Assembly: GCA_943787205.1 (NCBI GenBank)
Contig: CALSLN010000024.1
Location: 1-64,000, forward strand
Length of the DNA stretch: 64,000 nucleotides
Reading direction: 5' to 3'
From: an uncultured Rhodospirillaceae bacterium
Lineage (GTDB): Bacteria; Pseudomonadota; Alphaproteobacteria; Rhodospirillales; Rhodospirillaceae
The notes under the pieces are model-generated. The model was not told the origin of the DNA, made no database searches, and saw only the letters and a program-made list of their open reading frames with translations. Made by a program: the position numbers and the translations under genes. This document shows positions 16,817-52,580 of this stretch, one piece after another. Position 1 is the first letter of the stretch, and the number at the start of each line of letters is the position of its first letter.

Positions 16817-17938
16817 ATGGCTCGCAACCCTATTCACAGCATGTTGGCGTCACCGACGCATGACGAATTTGCGTTTCAGCAATACACGCTGGCGCTCAAG
16901 GATTTTGTGCGCGACAGAGTACGCTCTCGCAACGAAGACTTGTATGAGGTCCGGGCGAAACCTCGTTTCGTGAAGGAGCATGGTAGAGAGCCACAGTCAC
17001 AGCAAGAAATTGGATCTGTGATGTGGGATGACCCTGCCTATCAAATGTTCAGCCGCTTGCATCGTGATGGGCAAGAAATGATGTGGGCATCTGTCTCCGA
17101 TACCCTGTACCGGGAGCAAGACCGGTTATCATCTGACTACACACGCTATACTCAATCTAATCAGTGCAAGGGCACACTTGAGCTTGACCCTGAGTTTGAA
17201 GTGCCCCGTGGCATGGCCAACGTCGATATCCATCTACAACCGGGTGGTTACTGTTCCGATTACGGGGACGATGACGTCCTTGCGGGCGCGTTTTACGAAT
17301 ACGGCGGTAATCTCTACACGATGGGGCGGGGCGTCGGCCAAGCAGAGAGTAAAGGTGAAGTAGGGGTCCGCTTTATCAAAGACCGCTACCGTGGTTTTAC
17401 ACCAACCCGTGTTTTAGATATTGGCTGTTCGGCAGGCTCGTCGACGGTGCCTTACGTCACGGCATTTCCTGACGCTGAAGTTCACGGCATTGATATTGGC
17501 GCCGCTATTCTTCGTTATGCTCATGCGAGGGCCGAGGCGATGGAAAAGCCTGTGCACTATCATCAGCGCGATGCGGCAGAAATCGGCTTTGAGGATGAGA
17601 GTTTTGATCTCGTCATGTCGCACAACTCTATGCACGAGTTCCCCCAAAGCACGACCGAAGCCATGATGCGCGAGAGTTTCCGGCTGCTTAAGCCAGGCGG
17701 CGTCACTATGCATATGGATGTAAATATACGCTTTGACGAATACAGTCCCTGGATGCAATTCCACCGTGGCTGGGATCAAATCAATAACAACGAGCCTTAC
17801 TGGCGTGTTTATGCGACGAATAATCCAAGTGATATGATGCGTGAGGCTGGCTTTCCTGAAGAAAGCGTTTGGCAAGGTAAGTTCAGGCAACTCGACAAAA
17901 GCATCCAATGGTTCATTTCGACGGCGCGCAAGGAGTAG
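16817..17938 (+). CDS. Class I SAM-dependent methyltransferase (family member 1, no signal peptide)
   Basis: VLDIGCSAGSSTVPYVTAFPDAEVHGIDIGAAILRYAHARAE; SFDLVMSHNSMHEFP; RLLKPGG; shared N-terminal GTLELDPEFEVPRGMANVDIHLQPGGY. Confidence 0.9.
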   Translation: MARNPIHSMLASPTHDEFAFQQYTLALKDFVRDRVRSRNEDLYEVRAKPRFVKEHGREPQSQQEIGSVMWDDPAYQMFSRLHRDGQEMMWASVSDTLYREQDRLSSDYTRYTQSNQCKGTLELDPEFEVPRGMANVDIHLQPGGYCSDYGDDDVLAGAFYEYGGNLYTMGRGVGQAESKGEVGVRFIKDRYRGFTPTRVLDIGCSAGSSTVPYVTAFPDAEVHGIDIGAAILRYAHARAEAMEKPVHYHQRDAAEIGFEDESFDLVMSHNSMHEFPQSTTEAMMRESFRLLKPGGVTMHMDVNIRFDEYSPWMQFHRGWDQINNNEPYWRVYATNNPSDMMREAGFPEESVWQGKFRQLDKSIQWFISTARKE

Positions 17939-27326: not shown

Positions 27327-27447
27327 CTGTTTATGATCTCAGGTTTACCATACTCGCGCAGTGGCCATAAAGGGGGGCAGAGCTTGCCTCACACGTGCTA
27401 CGCTTGCAGCATCCCTTTCAAGATCAGTTAATCGCGGAGCGGCAGAA

Positions 27448-28911
27448 ATGAAGACAGATCGTAGAACGGCCCTTAAACTCGGCAGTGCAGTGGCGGCCAC
27501 ATTGGCGGCGAGTACAGCGCGGGCGCAGTCGGTGTCTAGCGCCGATCCAGACGTTATCGTCATCGGTGCCGGACTGTCGGGGCTATACGCCGCGATGCTT
27601 CTCACCGAAGCTGGAGCCACGGTGCAGGTGATTGAGGGGCGGGACCGCGTTGGCGGCCGCTTGTTCAGTGCCCGTAATGTTGAGGGCAACCCGGAATGGG
27701 GCGGGGATTCAATTCTCGGCGGTTATGGCCGCATGCAGGACGTTTCCGCCAATGTCGGCGTTAAGCTGGAGGACCACCAATCCCGCCGCGATCTCTCGCC
27801 CGAAGCGCACAAAGATCCAACCAATACAGAATTAGCCTTACGTGGAAAACTCATTCCCAAAGGCGATTGGCCAACCCATCCATTGAATATGATGCCCGCC
27901 GGCGCGAAGGCTCGCTTTCCTGGCCGTGGGTATTTCCAGTCGGTCATCGGTGAGAACAACCCGCTGGAGGCCTTTGAGGATTGGCTTGATGCGGACAGTG
28001 CTCAGTTTGATCGCTCGATCTACGAGGTCTTCAAGGAGATCGGCTGGAGCGATGAAGCGATCGAGCTCAACTACAACACTAACGTACAGTACGGCACCTC
28101 GGCCCACGATATTTCATCGTTGATGTGGTTCTTCACCCAGGCCTGGTTCAAGTTGCAAGGCGACTTGGATCGCGTTGCCTTCAAAGCGCCAGGCGGAAAC
28201 CAGAGCATTCCCGAAGCCATGGCCGCGACTTTGCCTGGTGAAGTGCATCTGAGCAAAGAAGTTATCGGCATTCGTAGTGAGCCAGGGCAGGCGGAGGTGC
28301 ATTGTTCTGATGGCAGTGTTTACAAAGCCAAGCGGGTAATCTGCTCGATGCCGATCCCGACGATGCGTTGGCTCAAGTTCGATCCGTTATTACCGGCCCT
28401 CAAAGCGCAAGCTATTGCCACGGTGCCAGTGCAGAAAATCACCAAGATCATCATGGTGCCGAAGAAACCCTTCTGGGAAGAAGACGGCTTTAGCCCTGCC
28501 ATGTGGACGGATACAGACTGTGGCGAAGTGCGCGCCCTCCGTGAAGGGGAAGATGCCAACCGCATCACCTGCCTCATGGCCTGGGGCCGGGGCCACCTTG
28601 CCGACAAACTCGATAGCTTTAGCGATGAAGACGCCATGGCGCGGGTCATTGCCGACTACGAACGTATTCGCCCGGCCGCCAAAGGCTTGCTGGAACCAGC
28701 GGGCATTAAATCCTGGCAAAGCGATCCCTTCGCCGCAGGCGATTGGGCGGTGTGGTCGCCGGGCACGGTGACCACCATGGTCAAAGCGATCATGGATCCA
28801 GCCGATCGTATTCACTTCTGTGGCGAGCATACGGCGACGTCGAACCGCGGTATGGAAGGCGCGATGGAGTCCGGCGAACGGGCAGCCTTCGAAGTCCTTG
28901 ATGTAATTTAG
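27448..28911 (+). CDS. Tat-exported flavin monoamine oxidase
   Basis: MKTDRRTALKLGSAVAATLAASTARAQ signal; [73 protein letters not shown]. Confidence 0.93.
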   Translation: MKTDRRTALKLGSAVAATLAASTARAQSVSSADPDVIVIGAGLSGLYAAMLLTEAGATVQVIEGRDRVGGRLFSARNVEGNPEWGGDSILGGYGRMQDVSANVGVKLEDHQSRRDLSPEAHKDPTNTELALRGKLIPKGDWPTHPLNMMPAGAKARFPGRGYFQSVIGENNPLEAFEDWLDADSAQFDRSIYEVFKEIGWSDEAIELNYNTNVQYGTSAHDISSLMWFFTQAWFKLQGDLDRVAFKAPGGNQSIPEAMAATLPGEVHLSKEVIGIRSEPGQAEVHCSDGSVYKAKRVICSMPIPTMRWLKFDPLLPALKAQAIATVPVQKITKIIMVPKKPFWEEDGFSPAMWTDTDCGEVRALREGEDANRITCLMAWGRGHLADKLDSFSDEDAMARVIADYERIRPAAKGLLEPAGIKSWQSDPFAAGDWAVWSPGTVTTMVKAIMDPADRIHFCGEHTATSNRGMEGAMESGERAAFEVLDVI

Positions 28912-28912
28912 C

Positions 28913-30334
28913 ATGGGCCTGTCACGCCGCACGTTTGTTGCAACTTCGGCTTTAGCCCTTGCGGCGTCACGCCCTCTCCACGCAAAAACCGAAGCGGACG
29001 TCATTATTATTGGGGCTGGGCTGTCGGGCCTCTATGCCGCGCGTCTCTTGGCAGATGAAGGCGCGAAGGTTGTTGTTGTCGAAGGCCGCAATCGTGTCGG
29101 TGGTCGTCTCGAAAGTTACCGGCATCTTGAAGGATCACCGGAAGCGGGTGGAGATTCTATCCTCGGTGGGTATGGCCGCGTCCGCGACCTGGCTGACCAA
29201 CTTGGGCTCACTGTTGTTAATCACCGTCCCCGTGGACGACTATCGCAAACGGAGATCGCCCTCGGTGGCAATGTTATTCCACGCGATGAATGGGCCGCGC
29301 ATCCGCTCAATCATATGCCCGCCAATGCCAAAACATCTTTCCCGGGGCGACGATTTTTTGAATCTGTTGTCGCCGCCAATAATCCGCTTGATGCGTTTGA
29401 AAGTTGGGCTGACCCAGAAAGCAAAAAGTACGACCGTTCCGTCCACGCCTTTCTTCAAGAGCAAGGATGGAGCGAGGAGACCATTAATCTCAATTACAAC
29501 ACCAACATCGGGCGCGGCACATCGGCGCACGACTGCTCGGTCCTCACGTGGTTCTTCCGTATTGGCTGGGACAAGGTGCAAACGGACATTGAAAACGTTG
29601 CGCTTAAAGTGGTTGGCGGTAATCAGTCCATTCCTGAAACCATCGCAGCACAGTTGCCAGGCGATGTGCACCTCAACAAACCTGTTGCTGCCATCCATCA
29701 GGATGCAACGGGTGTCGATGTCATTTGTGAAGACGGCACCACCTTCCGAGGCAAGCGCGTAATTAACTCCACACCGCTGCCGCCGCTGCGCTGGGTGAAC
29801 TTTGACCCGCTGTTGCCAGCTGAAAAAGCAGCGGCCATCAAGATGCTGCCGTCCATGAAGATCAACAAGGTATTCCTCACGGCAACGGAGCCATTTTGGG
29901 ATGACGATGGCTTTGGTCCGGGTATGTGGACCGATACGCCGATGGGGCAGGTGGCTGTTTTGCGTCAGTTGGAAAATAGCACTGCCGTCACCGGGCTAAT
30001 CGCCCGGTCGCGCGGCATCATGGCTGAAAAACTAGATACGCTTGGATCAGAAGCAGCGCAGGCGCTAGTGATTGCCGAATACGAAAAACTCCGGCCCGCT
30101 GCTAAGGGCAAACTCAAGGCTGTCGGTTATAAGTCCTGGGCGAAAGATCGCTTCGCGGGGGGGACTTGGATGGAATGGCACCCTGGGCAGGTACATATGT
30201 TCCAACCCCACCTTGCATCATCCGCAGGCCGCATTCACTTTTGTGGCGAACATACCGCGCAGTCAAACAGAGGCATGGAAGCCGCGGCAGAATCTGCCGA
30301 ACGCTGTGCCTTCGAAGTGTTGGACATGCTCTAG
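28913..30334 (+). CDS. Tat-exported flavin monoamine oxidase, tandem paralog
   Basis: MGLSRRTFVATSALALAASRPLHA signal; [73 protein letters not shown]; starts 1 nt after previous stop. Confidence 0.93.
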   Translation: MGLSRRTFVATSALALAASRPLHAKTEADVIIIGAGLSGLYAARLLADEGAKVVVVEGRNRVGGRLESYRHLEGSPEAGGDSILGGYGRVRDLADQLGLTVVNHRPRGRLSQTEIALGGNVIPRDEWAAHPLNHMPANAKTSFPGRRFFESVVAANNPLDAFESWADPESKKYDRSVHAFLQEQGWSEETINLNYNTNIGRGTSAHDCSVLTWFFRIGWDKVQTDIENVALKVVGGNQSIPETIAAQLPGDVHLNKPVAAIHQDATGVDVICEDGTTFRGKRVINSTPLPPLRWVNFDPLLPAEKAAAIKMLPSMKINKVFLTATEPFWDDDGFGPGMWTDTPMGQVAVLRQLENSTAVTGLIARSRGIMAEKLDTLGSEAAQALVIAEYEKLRPAAKGKLKAVGYKSWAKDRFAGGTWMEWHPGQVHMFQPHLASSAGRIHFCGEHTAQSNRGMEAAAESAERCAFEVLDML

Positions 30335-32614: not shown

Positions 32615-34729
32615 ATGAAATTGAGAACAGCACTTCTTGCCTCTGTGGCAATGTCACTGGCGCTCCCTGCATCTGCGCAACAGGTTGCGTTAGAAGAAAT
32701 CGTTGTTACGGCGCGTAAGCGCTCAGAAACGTTGTTGGAAATTCCGCTCACCGTGTCGGCATTCTCGGCCGATGATATTGAGCAGGCGGGCTACACGACC
32801 ATTTCTGATTTGATTGAAGCTGTGCCGGGCGTGCAGTACGGCAGTTTTGAAGCTGAAGGGCGTGGTGATTCAGCCAGCTTCCGTGGCGTCGCGACCAACA
32901 CCGGTGACCCAACCCTGCAAAACTCGTCCAAGTTTATCGACGGTGTTTACGTCTCAGGCTCGCTCTTCACGGCGCTGCTCTCTGATCTAGAGCGGGTTGA
33001 AGTGATCAAGGGGCCACAAAGCGCGCTCTATGGCCGCGCGACGTTCTCCGGGGCGATCAACTACATCACGAAAAAGCCGTCCAATGAGTTCGAAGGCTCC
33101 ATCAGTGCCACGGTTGCCGAGTATGACGAAATTCAGCTCAGCGGCTCTTTGAGTGGCCCAATCGTGGAAGACCGTTTAGCCATTCGGATTAGCGGCGGAT
33201 TGCTCAGTAAGGGCAGCGAATACAACAACATTACCAATGGCGCCGAGATGGGCGAAGACGATATCTATTCCATCAGCACTGCTTTGAGGTTGACGCCAAG
33301 TGACGCCTTCACGGCAGACTTATCGCTCAGCTATTCCGATGCGGATCTTGGTGAAGCGCCTCGTGCCACCACAGCCCTTAATAGCGGCGAGTTGGTTTTC
33401 CCTCTGACCTCCGTGATCGGCGGCAACGTGGATCAGTTGGACGATCCAGGGATCCAATCCGAGACCTTCCGTGGCAGCTTGTCCATGAATTACGACATGA
33501 ACGGTTACACGCTCACATCGATCACCGGGTATGGCGAAGAAGACACGGTTAACCAGTCCGATGGGAATTACGACCCCAGCAAAGTGGGTTTCTTATCGTT
33601 CCTCTGTAATGCCGGACCATTCGTTGGCGCCGATTGCAGTATTTTCCAAACCGTCACGGAACGTCGGCTTGAATCAAAATTCCAGGAATTCCGCATTACG
33701 TCGCCAGACGACGAGCGCTTAAGCTGGATTGCTGGGGCTTCCTATTTTGATGAAGACTTCTCGACGGCGCGCTTACGTAACTTCCGTCAATCCCCGTCTC
33801 TGAAGACCACTGAGAACCTGTCCGTCTTTGGCTCCGTGTCCTTCGAGGCAAGCGAGCAGTTCACAGTGAGCTTTGATGGCCGCTACCAAACAGAAGACAT
33901 CAAAGTTGAGAACCTCGACACCGGGACGATTCAAGAAGGTGAGTTCAATTCGTTCTTGCCGCGTTTCATCGTCGAATACACACCGTCAGACGATACTTTG
34001 CTCTACGCCAGTGCGGCGAAGGGCAACAAGCCGGGCACATTTAACAGCTCAGGCCCACCGCAGTTTGCCGTTGTCGACGAAGAGTCACTTTGGACCTATG
34101 AAGTCGGGACTAAAGTCAACGCATTGAACGATGTTCTCACAATCCAAGCCGCTGGTTACTTTATTGATTGGAGCAACCAAGTCTTCCGCTTCAACGACCC
34201 AGACCCCACAGTTGGGAGCTACTTCATCAACGCGGGTGAAACTGAAGTCTGGGGCGCTGATTTCTCCGTCAACGCGCAGTTCAACGAGCACTTGCGTGGC
34301 TCGGTTTCGTATTCTTATGTTGATACGGAATTCAAAGTCTTTGAATCAGCGAATGCTTTGACAATTCTGGGTGATGCCGATGTGTCTGGTAATCAGACGC
34401 CGCGCACCTCCGGAAACTCCCTCTTTGCATCTCTTGAGTATCAAGCGCCTCTGAACATGATCGGGGATGGTTACGACTGGTTCGCCCGCGCCGATTTGAG
34501 CTATCGCGATGAGATGTTTATCGATGAACTCAATCTAGAAACAATCGGGCCGCAGACACTTGTTAATCTGCGCCTCGGTATTGATACGGGACCAGCCCGT
34601 GTCACGCTGTTTGTCGATAACGCAACGAACAGCGATGCGCTGACCACTGGCTTCAGATTTGGTGCAGTGGCGCTCGTCGGACTGCCCCAAAGCCGGCAGT
34701 ATGGCATTTCAGCCGCTTACAAGTTTTAG
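32615..34729 (+). CDS. TonB-dependent receptor
   Basis: VALEEIVVTARKRSETLLEIPLTVSAFSADDIEQAGY; VEVIKGPQSALYGRATFSGAINYIT; C-terminal YGISAAYKF. Confidence 0.95.
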   Translation: MKLRTALLASVAMSLALPASAQQVALEEIVVTARKRSETLLEIPLTVSAFSADDIEQAGYTTISDLIEAVPGVQYGSFEAEGRGDSASFRGVATNTGDPTLQNSSKFIDGVYVSGSLFTALLSDLERVEVIKGPQSALYGRATFSGAINYITKKPSNEFEGSISATVAEYDEIQLSGSLSGPIVEDRLAIRISGGLLSKGSEYNNITNGAEMGEDDIYSISTALRLTPSDAFTADLSLSYSDADLGEAPRATTALNSGELVFPLTSVIGGNVDQLDDPGIQSETFRGSLSMNYDMNGYTLTSITGYGEEDTVNQSDGNYDPSKVGFLSFLCNAGPFVGADCSIFQTVTERRLESKFQEFRITSPDDERLSWIAGASYFDEDFSTARLRNFRQSPSLKTTENLSVFGSVSFEASEQFTVSFDGRYQTEDIKVENLDTGTIQEGEFNSFLPRFIVEYTPSDDTLLYASAAKGNKPGTFNSSGPPQFAVVDEESLWTYEVGTKVNALNDVLTIQAAGYFIDWSNQVFRFNDPDPTVGSYFINAGETEVWGADFSVNAQFNEHLRGSVSYSYVDTEFKVFESANALTILGDADVSGNQTPRTSGNSLFASLEYQAPLNMIGDGYDWFARADLSYRDEMFIDELNLETIGPQTLVNLRLGIDTGPARVTLFVDNATNSDALTTGFRFGAVALVGLPQSRQYGISAAYKF

Positions 34730-34904: not shown

Positions 34905-35231
34905 ATGACCGAAGGCTCTAAGAGCAAAGCAACACACCGCGAGGACTTTGTTCCTCCTCAAACCGAAGATGTGTTTCTCGATAACGCGGCCTTGGACAAT
35001 GTGATGTCGACGGTCATTGCTCTGGGCAGTGAGTTTTGGGCGCTGCAAAAGCGCATGAACGTGATGGAAACACTGTTGGAAGAAAATGGCTCCGTCTCGA
35101 AGGAGATGGTTGAAGCCTATCGTCCGACCGAAGAGCAAAGCGCCGCCTGGGAAGAGCAACGAGATCGTTTCATCAATCGCGTGTACGGGTTCTTGCAGAA
35201 CACCGGTACCGATTCAAAGACCGCCGGGTAG
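34905..35231 (+). CDS. Small hypothetical protein upstream of methyltransferase 2
   Basis: 108 aa ORF, 9 nt upstream of the methyltransferase ATG; no recognised family. Confidence 0.65.
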   Translation: MTEGSKSKATHREDFVPPQTEDVFLDNAALDNVMSTVIALGSEFWALQKRMNVMETLLEENGSVSKEMVEAYRPTEEQSAAWEEQRDRFINRVYGFLQNTGTDSKTAG

Positions 35232-35240
35232 GAGAGCACC

Positions 35241-36440
35241 ATGATTGATCGTCGCACCCTATTCGGAACAACCGCCGCTGTTGCTAGCGCCTTTACCTCT
35301 TTTTTCGGTAGCCGCAAGGCCGCTGCCGCCGTGACCTCGAAATCCTTGCCCAATGATATCGAGCCCCGCGGCACTTACACAGAAGGACGGTTAGAGCGCC
35401 TGCCAGAGATGGATATGGAAAGCCGCCTTGAATTTACCCAAGGCTTTCGCAATTGGTCCTTGCGCAACTTTGGCCGCAAGAGCTCTAGCCGAGTTAATGA
35501 GCTGGTGCGGGAAGCTGGGTTTGTCACAAGTCCGTCACCACCCATTGATGATGTCTTGGCCGCTATTGGCGATGATCTCACCGTATGGACAAGCGTGCGC
35601 TGTAAAACCACGGCGCAGCAGATTATGTGGAACAACTTGGTCGATGGCTTCAATGCCAACAAAGACGCGTACCTGGCCGAGCTGGACGCCGCCGATGCGT
35701 CCGGACCTGGGACACTAGAGCTCAACGCCGATCTCGATATACCCGATTACACAAAGCATGAAATTCACATTCAGCCCGGTGGCTATATTGGCGATCCGCT
35801 TGGCGGCTACGTCTATCACTATGGCGTCAACGTCTTCACGCTGGACCTTTCGTCTGAAGATGTTTTCCACCGTGACCTAGCCCAAATCATTCCTGTTCCG
35901 GAAGATGGCAAGATGGAACGCTTCTTGGATATCGGTACGGGCGTCGCCCAATTGCCCATGGCCGTGAAAGAACGATTCCCCGAGACAGATGTGTGGGGCA
36001 TTGATGTCGGCGCACCCATGTTGCGCTACGGCCATATGCGCGCCGCTGAGAACGGCTTGGATATCAACCTGTCTCAGCGCATGGCAGAGGACACTGGCTT
36101 TGAAGACAACAGCTTTGATGTTGTGACGGCCTACATTCTGTTCCACGAAGTCCCGACGGAAGAGACGAAGAAGATTCTGGCCGAGGTGCGTCGCATCTTG
36201 CGTCCGGGCGGTGTGTTCTTCCCCGTCGACTTCCGGACCTACACCCAAACACGGCCATCAGCCTCCGGCCGGTTTAATCAGTGGTGGGATCATGTGCATA
36301 ACAATGAAGTCTGGACCGAAGAGTATCGGGCGTCCGACTTTATTCAGTTGATGGCAGATGCAGGTTTGGTCGTGAATGAAGACGCCCCAACGTTGCAGAA
36401 ACGATTCTGGAACAGCGTTATGGCCACAAAGCCGGTTTAG
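35241..36440 (+). CDS. Class I SAM-dependent methyltransferase with Tat-like signal peptide (member 2)
   Basis: MIDRRTLFGTTAAVASAFTSFFGSRKAAAA; GTLELNADLDIPDYTKHEIHIQPGGYIGDPLGGYVYHYG; RFLDIGTGVAQLPMAVKERFPETDVWGIDVGAPMLRYGHMRA; ILRPGGVFFPVDFRT. Confidence 0.88.
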   Translation: MIDRRTLFGTTAAVASAFTSFFGSRKAAAAVTSKSLPNDIEPRGTYTEGRLERLPEMDMESRLEFTQGFRNWSLRNFGRKSSSRVNELVREAGFVTSPSPPIDDVLAAIGDDLTVWTSVRCKTTAQQIMWNNLVDGFNANKDAYLAELDAADASGPGTLELNADLDIPDYTKHEIHIQPGGYIGDPLGGYVYHYGVNVFTLDLSSEDVFHRDLAQIIPVPEDGKMERFLDIGTGVAQLPMAVKERFPETDVWGIDVGAPMLRYGHMRAAENGLDINLSQRMAEDTGFEDNSFDVVTAYILFHEVPTEETKKILAEVRRILRPGGVFFPVDFRTYTQTRPSASGRFNQWWDHVHNNEVWTEEYRASDFIQLMADAGLVVNEDAPTLQKRFWNSVMATKPV

Positions 36441-44099: not shown

Positions 44100-45302
44100 A
44101 TGCTTGATCGTCGTTCTCTGTTTGCTGCCACGGCTGCTGTCGGGTCTTTTGTTGGCGCTGTTTTTAAGGGACGTACGGCTGCCGCGGCCACATATGCGAA
44201 AAACGCTACCATTCCGGGTGAGGTCGAGCCCCGTGGCACCGATGGCCGCCATGAACGTCTCCCCACGTTAGATTTAGAAAGTCAGCATGATTTTCATTCT
44301 GGCATTCGCGGTTGGAACAGCCGCGTCGCAGGAAAAGCGGCCCAGCAGCGCGTTGAAAAGATCATGGTTGAGAATGGTCTGGACAAAAGAGCCACCATGT
44401 CGACCGAAAAAGCACTGTCTTTGATCGAACATGATCATGTCGTTGGTACCAGCGCTCGCACGTGGATCAGCAATCAGCAGACCATGTGGAAATCCATGCA
44501 GGATTATTATCACGCCAATGCGGATGACTACCTGGCTGAGATGGAAGCCTTCGATAACATTGGGCCAGGGACGTTAGAGCTGAACCCGGACATGGATATC
44601 CCCACCTATACGAAGCATGAAATTCATATGCAGCCGGGTGGATATGTCGGTGATGAGTTCGCAGGCCACATGTATCACTACGGCACCAACAATTTTTACA
44701 CCGGTGGTCGCGGTGACAATGAACAAGATCAAATTCACATAGGCACAGCAGAGCGCATGCCTTTGCCGGAGGATGGCAAAGTTAAGCGCATCCTCGTACA
44801 GGGGTGTGGTCCCGGTCAGTTTACCGTGGCCTTAAAAGAGCGGTTCCCCGATGCTGAAGTTTGGGGCATTGATGTTGGTGGTCCGCTTGTTCGCTATGGC
44901 CATATGCGCGCCGTTGAGCTTGGCGTCGATGTTAATTTTGCCCAGCGCTTAGCCGAAGATACAAAATTCCCGGATGGATACTTTGATATCGTCACATCAT
45001 TTATTATTCATCACGAACTTCCGGCAGATAAAACAAAAGAAGTGTTCCGTGAAGCACACCGGGTGACTCGTAAGGGCGGGTATTTTTATCCTGTCGACTT
45101 CCGCACCAGAGCATCAGAAAACCCAGCGTTTGCGCAGTACCGTACGTGGTGGGACCACCGCTGGAATACGGAAGTCTGGAGCCAAGAATTCCGCAGCATC
45201 AATTTGGAAGATGAATTGGTGAACGCCGGGTTCAAGTTAAAGGAAGATGCGAAGCCCGTGTTGCGTGGTTTCGGTGTTCGTCATGCTATCAAGCAAGCCT
45301 AG
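44100..45302 (+). CDS. Class I SAM-dependent methyltransferase with Tat-like signal peptide (member 3)
   Basis: MLDRRSLFAATAAVGSFVGAVFKGRTAAAA; GTLELNPDMDIPTYTKHEIHMQPGGYVGDEFAGHMYHYG; ILVQGCGPGQFTVALKERFPDAEVWGIDVGGPLVRYGHMRA. Confidence 0.88.
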   Translation: MLDRRSLFAATAAVGSFVGAVFKGRTAAAATYAKNATIPGEVEPRGTDGRHERLPTLDLESQHDFHSGIRGWNSRVAGKAAQQRVEKIMVENGLDKRATMSTEKALSLIEHDHVVGTSARTWISNQQTMWKSMQDYYHANADDYLAEMEAFDNIGPGTLELNPDMDIPTYTKHEIHMQPGGYVGDEFAGHMYHYGTNNFYTGGRGDNEQDQIHIGTAERMPLPEDGKVKRILVQGCGPGQFTVALKERFPDAEVWGIDVGGPLVRYGHMRAVELGVDVNFAQRLAEDTKFPDGYFDIVTSFIIHHELPADKTKEVFREAHRVTRKGGYFYPVDFRTRASENPAFAQYRTWWDHRWNTEVWSQEFRSINLEDELVNAGFKLKEDAKPVLRGFGVRHAIKQA

Positions 45303-45332: not shown

Positions 45333-45410
45333 TGCTATGACGCGAAGTCATAGCAAATTTCAAACACGGTGATAGTTTGAGGAAGCCCCGTTCAAGAACG
45401 GGGCTTTTTT
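45333..45410 (+). terminator. Tandem hairpins: tgctatgac-gcgaa-gtcatagca then intrinsic terminator gccccgtt-caag-aacggggc-tttttt
   Basis: Two perfect stems; second (45385-45404) followed by a T6 run. Confidence 0.9.
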
Positions 45411-45442
45411 CAATAACGCCAAGAACTGGCAAACGGGTGGGT

Positions 45443-47590
45443 ATGTTACGTTTCAGTGGAGGAGGGCTTGCTGTTATCGCGTTAGCGGTATCGCTTAGCA
45501 GTGCCCATGTTTATGGCGCATCTGCCCAGGACGCACCTGCACTAGACCCTCAAGTCCAAGTTCAAACCCGAGACGGTACGGATACTGGTTCCGTTGTGGT
45601 CTACGATGCGGAATATTTCGCGCAGTACAATCCGATCACGGCTGAAGACATGCTCAACCGTATTCCGGGCACGGAAGGTCTTGTTGGCGGCTTCGGTAGT
45701 GATCAGGAAGAGCGTCGGGGGTTGCGCTCAAACACGGATCAAATCCTGATTGATGGTAAACGCCTGACCGGTAAAGAAAACCAAAGCTCAAGTTTTTTGG
45801 AGAGGTTGCCGGCCAAATCCGTCGAACGCATCGAACTGATTACGGGCAACGTGCGTGAGTTGGATACGGATGTAGGCGTGCGGGTCATTAACGTTGTCCT
45901 GAAAGAAGGTACGGGACGCGGTAGTGGTTTTGCACAAATTGGCACCTTCGTATTCTCCGATGGCGCAGTCGTACCGATGGGTAGTCTCTCGTACAACGGA
46001 TCAGTGGGGAACCTATCCTACAACGCATCGACACAACTTCGGCCCGCGCAGTCTCCTACAGATGTTGTTGATATTATTCGCAGCCCTACCGGAGACCGTG
46101 TCAGCGTTATTGAAGAAGAACGCCGTCAGTCCCAAAGGCAAATTGAAGGGCGAGGTGCGCTCACCTATAATTGGGAAAGCGGTAAGACGCTGCAACTCAA
46201 TGGTCTCTTCACTTATTTTCCGCGCGATAACTTTGATACCACCACGACTTTTCTTGATCCTGGCAACGGCTCGTTGATCGAGTCAGGAACGGTTGTCGAT
46301 AACATCAAAGGTGACAACACGACGTGGGAGATCAGTGGGGATTACAGCCAGTCTCTTGGAAAATCCCTGAACTTTACTGGGTTATTCATTTACTCAAATA
46401 GTGGCGTTGATCGCGAGAACGAGAATTTTATCCAGGTTGGTGAAGATCGAACGCAGACCGGTGGTGACAACCGTGATCAAACTGCGACGGAGAAAATTTT
46501 ACGTGGAACGCTGAATTGGAACATTGCCAAGAAGCACGATTTGGAACTGGGTGTGGAAGGCGCAATCAATACTCTGGACAAAGACCTGGATTTTTTCTCC
46601 GTCGTGAACGGGGCAATCTTTGATATCCCAATTATAAATAGCGATCAGAAGATTACGGAAGATCGCATCGAAGGCTTTAGCACCTATAGCTGGAAACCTA
46701 TCGATGGTCTTGAAATTGAAACGGGTCTTGCCGCCGAATACTCCTCTCTGACTCAAATCGGCAGTGATGTGGGAACGGAGCGTTCCTTCACCTTCGTCAA
46801 ACCCAGCCTGGATATTTGGTACAATGTCGATTCAGCCACGCAAGTGTGGTTCTCGGCGAGCCGCGACGTGGGGCAATTGGACTTTGATGATTTTGTCGCC
46901 ACCGTAAACCGCGAAGACAATGAAGTGCTGTCCGGGAACCCGGAGCTCGCGCCAGAAAAATCCTGGGACTTTGAAGTCGGGGCCGAGCGCCGTCTGAACG
47001 ATGGGGCGGGCGTTATCAACGGACGTGTTTTCTATCGTCGTGTTAATGACGTCAAGGACCTTATTCCCTTTGGTTTGACGGATTCACAGCCTGGCAACTT
47101 GGGCAGTGGCGACCATTACGGGGCCGAAATAGAAGGCAGTATTCGGTTTGGCCGTTTCACCAGTGTCGACGCTGTCCTTAGTGGTTCTTTTCTCATTCAA
47201 GATTCAAAAGTTGCCGACCCGTTTACAGGTGTGAACCGGCGCTTTGGCAATCAAACGAAGTATGAATACAGCATGGAGGCCCGCCACGACGTAAAGTCAT
47301 GGGGAACCTCTTACGGCTTTGATTTTTCAAAGAAGGGCCCGAACCTAGAGAGTGACGTCGCCGAGTTGGATTTAAAATCCACGACGCTCGATGCGCGTAT
47401 CTTTCTTGAGCAGACCATCACGGACGGTACAATCCTGCGTCTGTTCTGGGCCAACATGCTGAAGATTAGTAACAAGCGTGTGCGGACCGTGTTCGACCCC
47501 AGTCAGGCCAGCGGCACCATTGATCGCGTTGAGTTTCGCGACTCAGAACGAGGCTGGATCGCAGGCTTTAGGCTGAGAACGACGTTCTAA
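45443..47590 (+). CDS. TonB-dependent receptor
   Basis: Plug pattern ITAEDMLNRIPGTEG, QILIDGKRLTGKENQSSSFLERLPAKSVERIELITG; ATG 45443 preferred because the ORF-track TTG 45377 lies upstream of the terminator. Confidence 0.88.
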   Translation: MLRFSGGGLAVIALAVSLSSAHVYGASAQDAPALDPQVQVQTRDGTDTGSVVVYDAEYFAQYNPITAEDMLNRIPGTEGLVGGFGSDQEERRGLRSNTDQILIDGKRLTGKENQSSSFLERLPAKSVERIELITGNVRELDTDVGVRVINVVLKEGTGRGSGFAQIGTFVFSDGAVVPMGSLSYNGSVGNLSYNASTQLRPAQSPTDVVDIIRSPTGDRVSVIEEERRQSQRQIEGRGALTYNWESGKTLQLNGLFTYFPRDNFDTTTTFLDPGNGSLIESGTVVDNIKGDNTTWEISGDYSQSLGKSLNFTGLFIYSNSGVDRENENFIQVGEDRTQTGGDNRDQTATEKILRGTLNWNIAKKHDLELGVEGAINTLDKDLDFFSVVNGAIFDIPIINSDQKITEDRIEGFSTYSWKPIDGLEIETGLAAEYSSLTQIGSDVGTERSFTFVKPSLDIWYNVDSATQVWFSASRDVGQLDFDDFVATVNREDNEVLSGNPELAPEKSWDFEVGAERRLNDGAGVINGRVFYRRVNDVKDLIPFGLTDSQPGNLGSGDHYGAEIEGSIRFGRFTSVDAVLSGSFLIQDSKVADPFTGVNRRFGNQTKYEYSMEARHDVKSWGTSYGFDFSKKGPNLESDVAELDLKSTTLDARIFLEQTITDGTILRLFWANMLKISNKRVRTVFDPSQASGTIDRVEFRDSERGWIAGFRLRTTF

Positions 47591-51228: not shown

Positions 51229-51603
51229 ATGAGACAGAGAACAGAACGTCATCAAGAAGCAGCAGACCGGACTGTAAAGGATATCCGGCGTAAGACGCGC
51301 AAGCGTTATTCTTCCGAGGAGAAGATTCGTATTGTGCTCGCCGGATTGCGGGGCGAGGACAGCATTGCCGAGCTTTGTCGTCAGGAGGGCATTGCCCAGG
51401 GCCTGTATTATACCTGGTCGAAGGAGTTCCTTGAAGCTGGGAAGAAGCGCCTGGCTGGTGATACGGCACGTGAGGCCAACACAGGCGAGGTCAAGGATCT
51501 TCGCCGCGAGGCGCGTGATCTCAAGGAGGTTGTGGCTGAACAGGCCCTCGAACTGCGTCTGCTTAAAAAAAGCATGATCGGGGATGGGGGAGACGAAGAA
51601 TGA
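51229..51603 (+). CDS. IS3-family transposase OrfA
   Basis: KRYSSEEKIRIVLAGLRGEDSIAELCRQEGIAQGLYYTWSKEFLEAGKKRLAGD HTH. Confidence 0.92.
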   Translation: MRQRTERHQEAADRTVKDIRRKTRKRYSSEEKIRIVLAGLRGEDSIAELCRQEGIAQGLYYTWSKEFLEAGKKRLAGDTAREANTGEVKDLRREARDLKEVVAEQALELRLLKKSMIGDGGDEE

Positions 51604-52580
51604 GATACCCTGCCTCCGAGAAGCTTGAGATCATCAAGCTGGTTGAACAGTCGCACCTGCCGGCCAAACGCACATTGGATAAGCTCGGGGTTCCCCGCAC
51701 CACCTTCTACCGCTGGTACGACAAGTATCTGGAGGGCGGGGTAGAAGCTCTCGAAGACAAGTCGCCCAAGCCGTCGCGGGTGTGGAACCGGATCCCGGAT
51801 GACATCCGTGACCGGATTATCCATATGGCCCTGGAGAACCCGGAGCTGTCGCCCCGGGAACTGGCGGTACGCTTCACTGATACGCAGGCCTACTTCGTCT
51901 CGGAAGCTAGTGTTTACCGGCTTCTCAAGTCCCATGACCTGATCACCAGCCCAGCCTTTGTGGTGATCAAGGCAAGCAGTGAGTTCAAAGACAAGACGAG
52001 CCGTATCAACCAACTCTGGCAGACCGACTTCACCTACATCAAGGTGATCGGATGGGGTTGGTTTTATCTGAGCACCATCCTGGATGATTACTCGCGTTAC
52101 ATCATCACCTGGACTCTCTGCACGACCATGAAGGCCAGTGATGTGATGGACACTTTGGAACGGGCCTTACAGGCCTCAGGCTGTGATCAGGTTGAGGTTC
52201 AACACAAGCCACGTCTGCTCTCAGACAATGGACCGTCTTACCTCTCTGGTGAACTGGCCGAGTGGCTCGCTGACAACGGTATGGATCACGTGCGTGGTGC
52301 TCCCTATCACCCACAGACGCAGGGCAAGATTGAACGGTGGCATCAGACTTTGAAGAACCGCATCTTGCTGGAAAACTACTTTCTACCGGGTGATCTCAAG
52401 GCCAACATCGGACGCTTCGTCACCTACTACAATCACCACCGCTATCACGAGAGTCTGAGCAATCTGACACCCGCCGATGTCTACTTTGGTCGCGGCGAAA
52501 CCATTCTAATCGAAAGGGAAAGGATCAAACGAAACACCATCAAACAACGGCGCTTGCAACACCGCAAAGACGCCGCTTAA
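51600..52580 (+). CDS. IS3-family transposase OrfB (DDE integrase core)
   Basis: LWQTDFTYIKVIGWGWFYLSTILDDYSRYIITW...LLSDNGPSYLSGELAEWL...GAPYHPQTQGKIERWHQTLKNR; overlaps OrfA by ATGA. Confidence 0.94.
   Translation: MRYPASEKLEIIKLVEQSHLPAKRTLDKLGVPRTTFYRWYDKYLEGGVEALEDKSPKPSRVWNRIPDDIRDRIIHMALENPELSPRELAVRFTDTQAYFVSEASVYRLLKSHDLITSPAFVVIKASSEFKDKTSRINQLWQTDFTYIKVIGWGWFYLSTILDDYSRYIITWTLCTTMKASDVMDTLERALQASGCDQVEVQHKPRLLSDNGPSYLSGELAEWLADNGMDHVRGAPYHPQTQGKIERWHQTLKNRILLENYFLPGDLKANIGRFVTYYNHHRYHESLSNLTPADVYFGRGETILIERERIKRNTIKQRRLQHRKDAA

Follow-up and report, generated by a model that had tools for sequence, protein, structure and literature searches.

S-adenosylmethionine (SAM) chemistry is usually regarded as cytoplasmic, and an export signal on a clade of proteins with the SAM-methyltransferase fold is unusual, since SAM would not be expected beyond the inner membrane. 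Two genes in the stretch of DNA analysed here (the window, 64,000 nucleotides of contig CALSLN010000024.1 from an uncultured Rhodospirillaceae bacterium, GenBank assembly GCA_943787205.1) raise the question of whether proteins of this fold are exported by the Tat pathway and, if so, what becomes of their cofactor. The original prediction of two class I SAM methyltransferases was borne out (Table 1). Both ORFs are present and start with ATG preceded by a purine-rich Shine-Dalgarno-like stretch, and the Pfam model Methyltransf_25 was above cut-off over residues ~229-327 of both products (E 1.3e-19 for methyltransferase 1 and 9.7e-19 for methyltransferase 2). The NCBIfam equivalog models (UbiE, CpaM, RquA and others) all scored far below cut-off for the window proteins. 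An AF2 model of methyltransferase 1 (pLDDT 86.7) found SAM- or SAH-bound methyltransferases as its best PDB matches in Foldseek, with the DsyB-SAM structure first (E 3e-11); as the whole-chain TM was modest, this places the fold and not the substrate.

Table 1 Features of the window and of related loci. Positions refer to the window unless preceded by the label of a related locus.
Feature	Position	Strand	Description
Cytosolic-type paralog	16817..17938	+	373 aa; no signal; comparison inside the window
TonB-dependent receptor	32615..34729	+	ends 175 bp before the small partner gene; Pfam TonB receptor and Plug
Small helical partner protein	34905..35231	+	108 aa; ends 9 bp before methyltransferase 1; lacks a signal peptide
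Methyltransferase 1	35241..36440	+	399 aa; signal, helical N-terminal region and class I SAM-methyltransferase domain (aa ~225-335)
Tat-type signal, methyltransferase 1	35241..35330	+	residues 1-30
Methyltransferase 2	44100..45302	+	400 aa; 47% identity to methyltransferase 1
Tat-type signal, methyltransferase 2	44100..44189	+	residues 1-30 (DRRSLF ... K-GR-TAAAA)
TonB-dependent receptor	45377..47590	+	75 bp downstream of methyltransferase 2; Pfam
NAD(P)-binding Rossmann proteins, apparent signals	L017:4023-4784, L017:560-1252, L024:2257-2979, L028:4801-5565, L102:7177-7971		

The N-terminal sequences are MIDRRTLFGTTAAVASAFTSFFGSRKAAAA (methyltransferase 1) and MLDRRSLFAATAAVGSFVGAVFKGRTAAAA (methyltransferase 2). 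In the former, DRRTLF is followed by 19 uncharged residues, counted from the T after the arginine pair, then by R-K and AAAA, and residues 1-31 of the AF2 model are unstructured (pLDDT <50) ahead of the confident fold. A Tat-like signal had been proposed for both proteins, and this was supported by the conservation of the arginine pair in relatives and by sister paralogs that have no signal. Among the 80 best related loci from a contig scan, 76 encode RR at the expected site (residues ~3-5), the exceptions being three proteins without a signal and one with GR; in a 72-row alignment one arginine is invariant and the other is kept in at least 90% of the rows. The paired arginines and an AxA-like site are retained although overall identity is only 40-50%. 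The TatP pattern RR.[FGAVML][LITMVF], as quoted in PMC6085387 and combined here with a run of at least 12 uncharged residues, occurs in 98/108 members of the signal clade, a descriptive count because a looser RR rule had a share in defining the signal classes; the independent comparisons are 0/46 among distant paralogs and a background of 15/413 (3.6%) among other ORFs of the same genome. The pattern is thus found in the clade more often than expected by chance.

The kind of signal was judged from its hydrophobicity and its c-region. For the two window proteins, the best 19-residue Kyte-Doolittle means are 1.07 and 1.39, against a family median of 1.27. Just one of 107 signals reaches 1.6, the other 106 being under the usual transmembrane range. 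A membrane anchor, which had been offered as an alternative to export, is disfavoured by these values and was rejected, the hydrophobicity being too low. Every one of the 107 signals has K or R after the h-region and before an AxA-like site, the latter scored with a permissive pattern. Nucleotide-binding Rossmann proteins that fold fast are poor Sec substrates. Tat signals and Sec avoidance are marked by low hydrophobicity and by basic residues in the c-region (PMC7317946). With their moderate hydrophobicity and a basic residue ahead of the AxA-like site, the signals are more easily explained by Tat than by Sec or by membrane anchoring. Export by Sec would agree with the overlap in hydrophobicity between Tat and Sec signals (PMC7317946), but the almost invariant RR, the basic residue in all 107 c-regions and the rapid folding expected of the domain make it very improbable.

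It is also improbable, if less markedly so, that the N-terminus is no working export signal at all, with the segment left uncleaved in association with the membrane or the protein simply cytoplasmic. SAM is cytosolic, signal-less paralogs occur within the same clade, and the curated models make no call: neither Pfam TAT_signal (PF10518) nor NCBIfam picked out the signal in the window proteins, and a canonical SRRTF control was missed as well. One paralog from the window's genome (L022) scored 15.0 of the 22.7 bits needed with PF10518. Such a reading is opposed by the low hydrophobicity, by retention of the arginine pair and AxA-like site in divergent sequences, and by the complete absence of the segment from cytosolic paralogs. 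As to the machinery, TatC is complete in 6/6 congeners, and in the MAG that contains the window the tatC frame is split into two overlapping pieces (C5:124007-124667; L162 and L163), which is either an assembly error or a real break.

Signal-bearing methyltransferases are a family-wide phenomenon and are not confined to the two window proteins. Across the whole MAG (30 contigs, 3.49 Mb) a search turned up 60 matching sites, and 53 matching ORFs were recovered from the loci; at least 13 are full-length methyltransferases with an RR signal, including the two in the window. Two more copies, truncated or frame-broken, also have RR. Contig 5 carries a tandem array of at least six copies. The last member of this array (C5:66507-67698) and the upstream gene of a pair on contig 26 (C26:50493-52633) are truncated or frame-broken. 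Distant paralogs in the genome (~30% identity) start without the signal segment, as do three intermediates (~36%), and it is absent from all 46 of the more distant paralogs in the set. The best 80 loci are mostly from Rhodospirillaceae and other alphaproteobacterial MAGs, whose names in some cases refer to seas and lakes, and also include gammaproteobacterial and Nevskiaceae MAGs. Among the matches listed for 61 near genomes, strong ones were found in 7/7 genomes of the genus and in seven others of the family, and in 0/24 from the order's other families. In a phylum-wide sample of 399 genomes, the window's own was alone in matching at E 1e-60. On these results, the family's distribution is narrow within the order and patchy beyond it.

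A FastTree tree was built with the signal columns left out and was rooted on the distant paralogs. The most recent common ancestor of the signal clade subtends 122 leaves, none a distant paralog, with support 100; every signal-bearing protein is among them, as are nine without a signal, and one leaf is labelled intermediate. The signal state changes at least six times on the tree, and the simplest reading would be a single gain of the signal followed by several nested losses. Eight of the signal-less members are encoded 1-25 bp downstream of a paralog, and the upstream gene has a signal in six intact cases and in a seventh, the pair on contig 26 of the window's own genome, where it is frame-broken. 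In the eighth pair (MED667, L126:3036-5462) neither member has a signal, while in the other pairs only the downstream member is without one. As most signal-less tandem members fall in one subclade, they represent perhaps two independent losses. The tandem arrangement suggests that the signal-less paralogs may be exported as hitchhikers with their signal-bearing partners; another reading is that they have returned to the cytoplasm.

The clade largely retains the SAM motifs, together with an invariant His-Glu. With class I SAM methyltransferases (Methyltransf_25/11; solved relatives DsyB, Coq5, Rv2258c and the CysG N-methyltransferase) it shares the fold, the motif I region, the ribose-side acid and the region of the active-site His; to our knowledge, a Tat signal is known in none of them. 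In 108 aligned clade rows G232, P259, E283, D293, H302 and E303 are invariant, and the ribose-side acid D/E255 is present in all 108. Each window protein departs from motif I once. The third motif I glycine, G236, is kept in 102/108 rows and is Ala in six, methyltransferase 1 among them, and the motif I acid (D/E230) is kept in 96/108 rows and lost in 12, among them methyltransferase 2, where it is Val (LVQGCGPG). Position 281 aligns with the GDA-motif Asp of LahSB, which we take to contact adenine in class I methyltransferases, and is Leu in 101/108 clade members versus Asn or Asp in 38/46 distant paralogs.

Taken together, Leu 281, the loss of the motif I acid and Ala 236 could alter SAM binding. 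They are what favours a rather unlikely alternative, namely that the proteins are exported by Tat and have lost methyl transfer, acting as periplasmic binding proteins or as enzymes that use bound SAM or SAH without consuming it. It also counts for this alternative that we know of no route by which SAM is renewed outside the cytoplasm. However, the invariance of D/E255, G232 and H302-E303 fits continued catalysis, and Leu 281 is found in signal-less clade members too, which marks it as a trait of the clade and not of export.

A small gene lies just upstream of methyltransferase 1, and its product belongs to a previously undescribed family. The first cluster held 48 members of ~110 residues in 44 loci, and HMM iteration raised this to 85 members, with 27 matches in the window's own genome. 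Next to a signal-bearing methyltransferase, the partner gene usually lies upstream at a distance of 9-35 bp; next to those cytosolic methyltransferases that have one, it is mostly directly downstream. Roughly half of the methyltransferase genes lack an adjacent partner. The partner itself carries no signal. The modelled structure is a helical hairpin (pLDDT 74). No relative was found in Pfam, NCBIfam, PDB sequences or a fold search, and the idea of a known chaperone was rejected for want of any such match. From the adjacency of the genes we infer that partner and methyltransferase may form a complex.

The window proteins and their clade are most likely Tat substrates that would cross the membrane in folded form, perhaps carrying SAM or SAH. 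A class I methyltransferase-fold clade would have acquired its Tat signal in a single event before it multiplied. Folding would take place in the cytoplasm, SAM or SAH probably being bound at this stage, and the protein would probably assemble with the small helical protein and sometimes with a signal-less paralog; Tat would then export the folded complex, the signal being cleaved and the partners co-exported, and the methyltransferase may act on a catabolic substrate in the periplasm. We judge the chances to be evenly balanced for the account in its general form, in which the signal was gained once, the clade expanded and a folded, Tat-exported complex acts in the periplasm. A periplasmic supply of SAM is not known to exist, and a tightly bound, unconsumed cofactor would be the simplest way round the problem of its renewal. 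The fuller proposal of a Tat-exported family with permanently bound SAM or SAH used in the periplasm, a dedicated partner and paralogous hitchhikers is unlikely as a whole. Were the cofactor indeed carried out in bound form, SAM-fold chemistry would take place outside the cytoplasm in aquatic Proteobacteria. More broadly, a conserved and multiplied clade of this kind implies either periplasmic SAM-fold chemistry that needs a supply of cofactor or a fold put to other use, and the family brings its own comparisons in its cytosolic paralogs, signal-less tandem partners and new partner protein.

A precedent for the Tat export of a cofactor-loaded Rossmann enzyme is the glucose-fructose oxidoreductase of Zymomonas mobilis, whose export needs both the twin arginines and cofactor binding (Halbig 1999, as cited in PMC7317946). 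The comparison is one of working principle, as the oxidoreductase differs in belonging to another family and in having NADP as its cofactor. This NADP is recycled on the enzyme. In the Tat hitchhiker complexes HybOC and PaoABC, signal-less subunits are encoded beside a signal-bearing partner (PMC4273604), much as most signal-less members of the clade adjoin signal-bearing genes; the difference is that the putative pairs here consist of paralogs, or of a methyltransferase and a small helical protein.

Homologous methyltransferase-partner pairs also occur on sphingomonad plasmids inside catabolic-looking clusters. In pJE1 of Sphingomonas sp. JE1 a cytosolic-type homolog (WP_087573421.1) is directly followed by a partner of the same family (WP_087573420.1) in such a cluster; this pair differs in having no signal peptide and in the small gene lying downstream, not upstream. 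The papers found for it were unrelated, and none described its function. A limited open-access search with strict queries, itself weak evidence, turned up no SAM methyltransferase described as periplasmic or exported by Tat, and the main text of a survey of P. aeruginosa Tat substrates (PMC6085387) mentions no methyltransferase. Within the limits of this search, the exported-looking clade, its expansion and the partner protein are new.

Each of the two window genes has a TonB-dependent receptor gene nearby, but such a receptor lies within 5 kb of only 2/16 signal-clade genes in the same genome and 10/106 related ones; it was rejected as a general partner, and the arrangement in the window is locus-specific. 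Nor did the neighbours indicate a substrate, as tannase-like, alpha/beta hydrolase, NAD(P)-binding and CpeT-like proteins recur in few loci only, and no consistent pathway was seen among the genes next to clade loci. Elsewhere in the window, an integrase/transposase-like ORF of IS type, judged by eye, lies between transporter and TonB receptor genes (51600-52580). Two neighbouring paralogous FAD amine oxidases are encoded at 27361-30334, the second of which has a canonical Tat-type signal (SRRTF), and a fragment of a third paralog is found at 1253-1858. Near clade methyltransferase genes in related loci there are NAD(P)-binding Rossmann proteins that seem to carry Sec or Tat signals (Table 1), as if further soluble-cofactor enzymes were exported.
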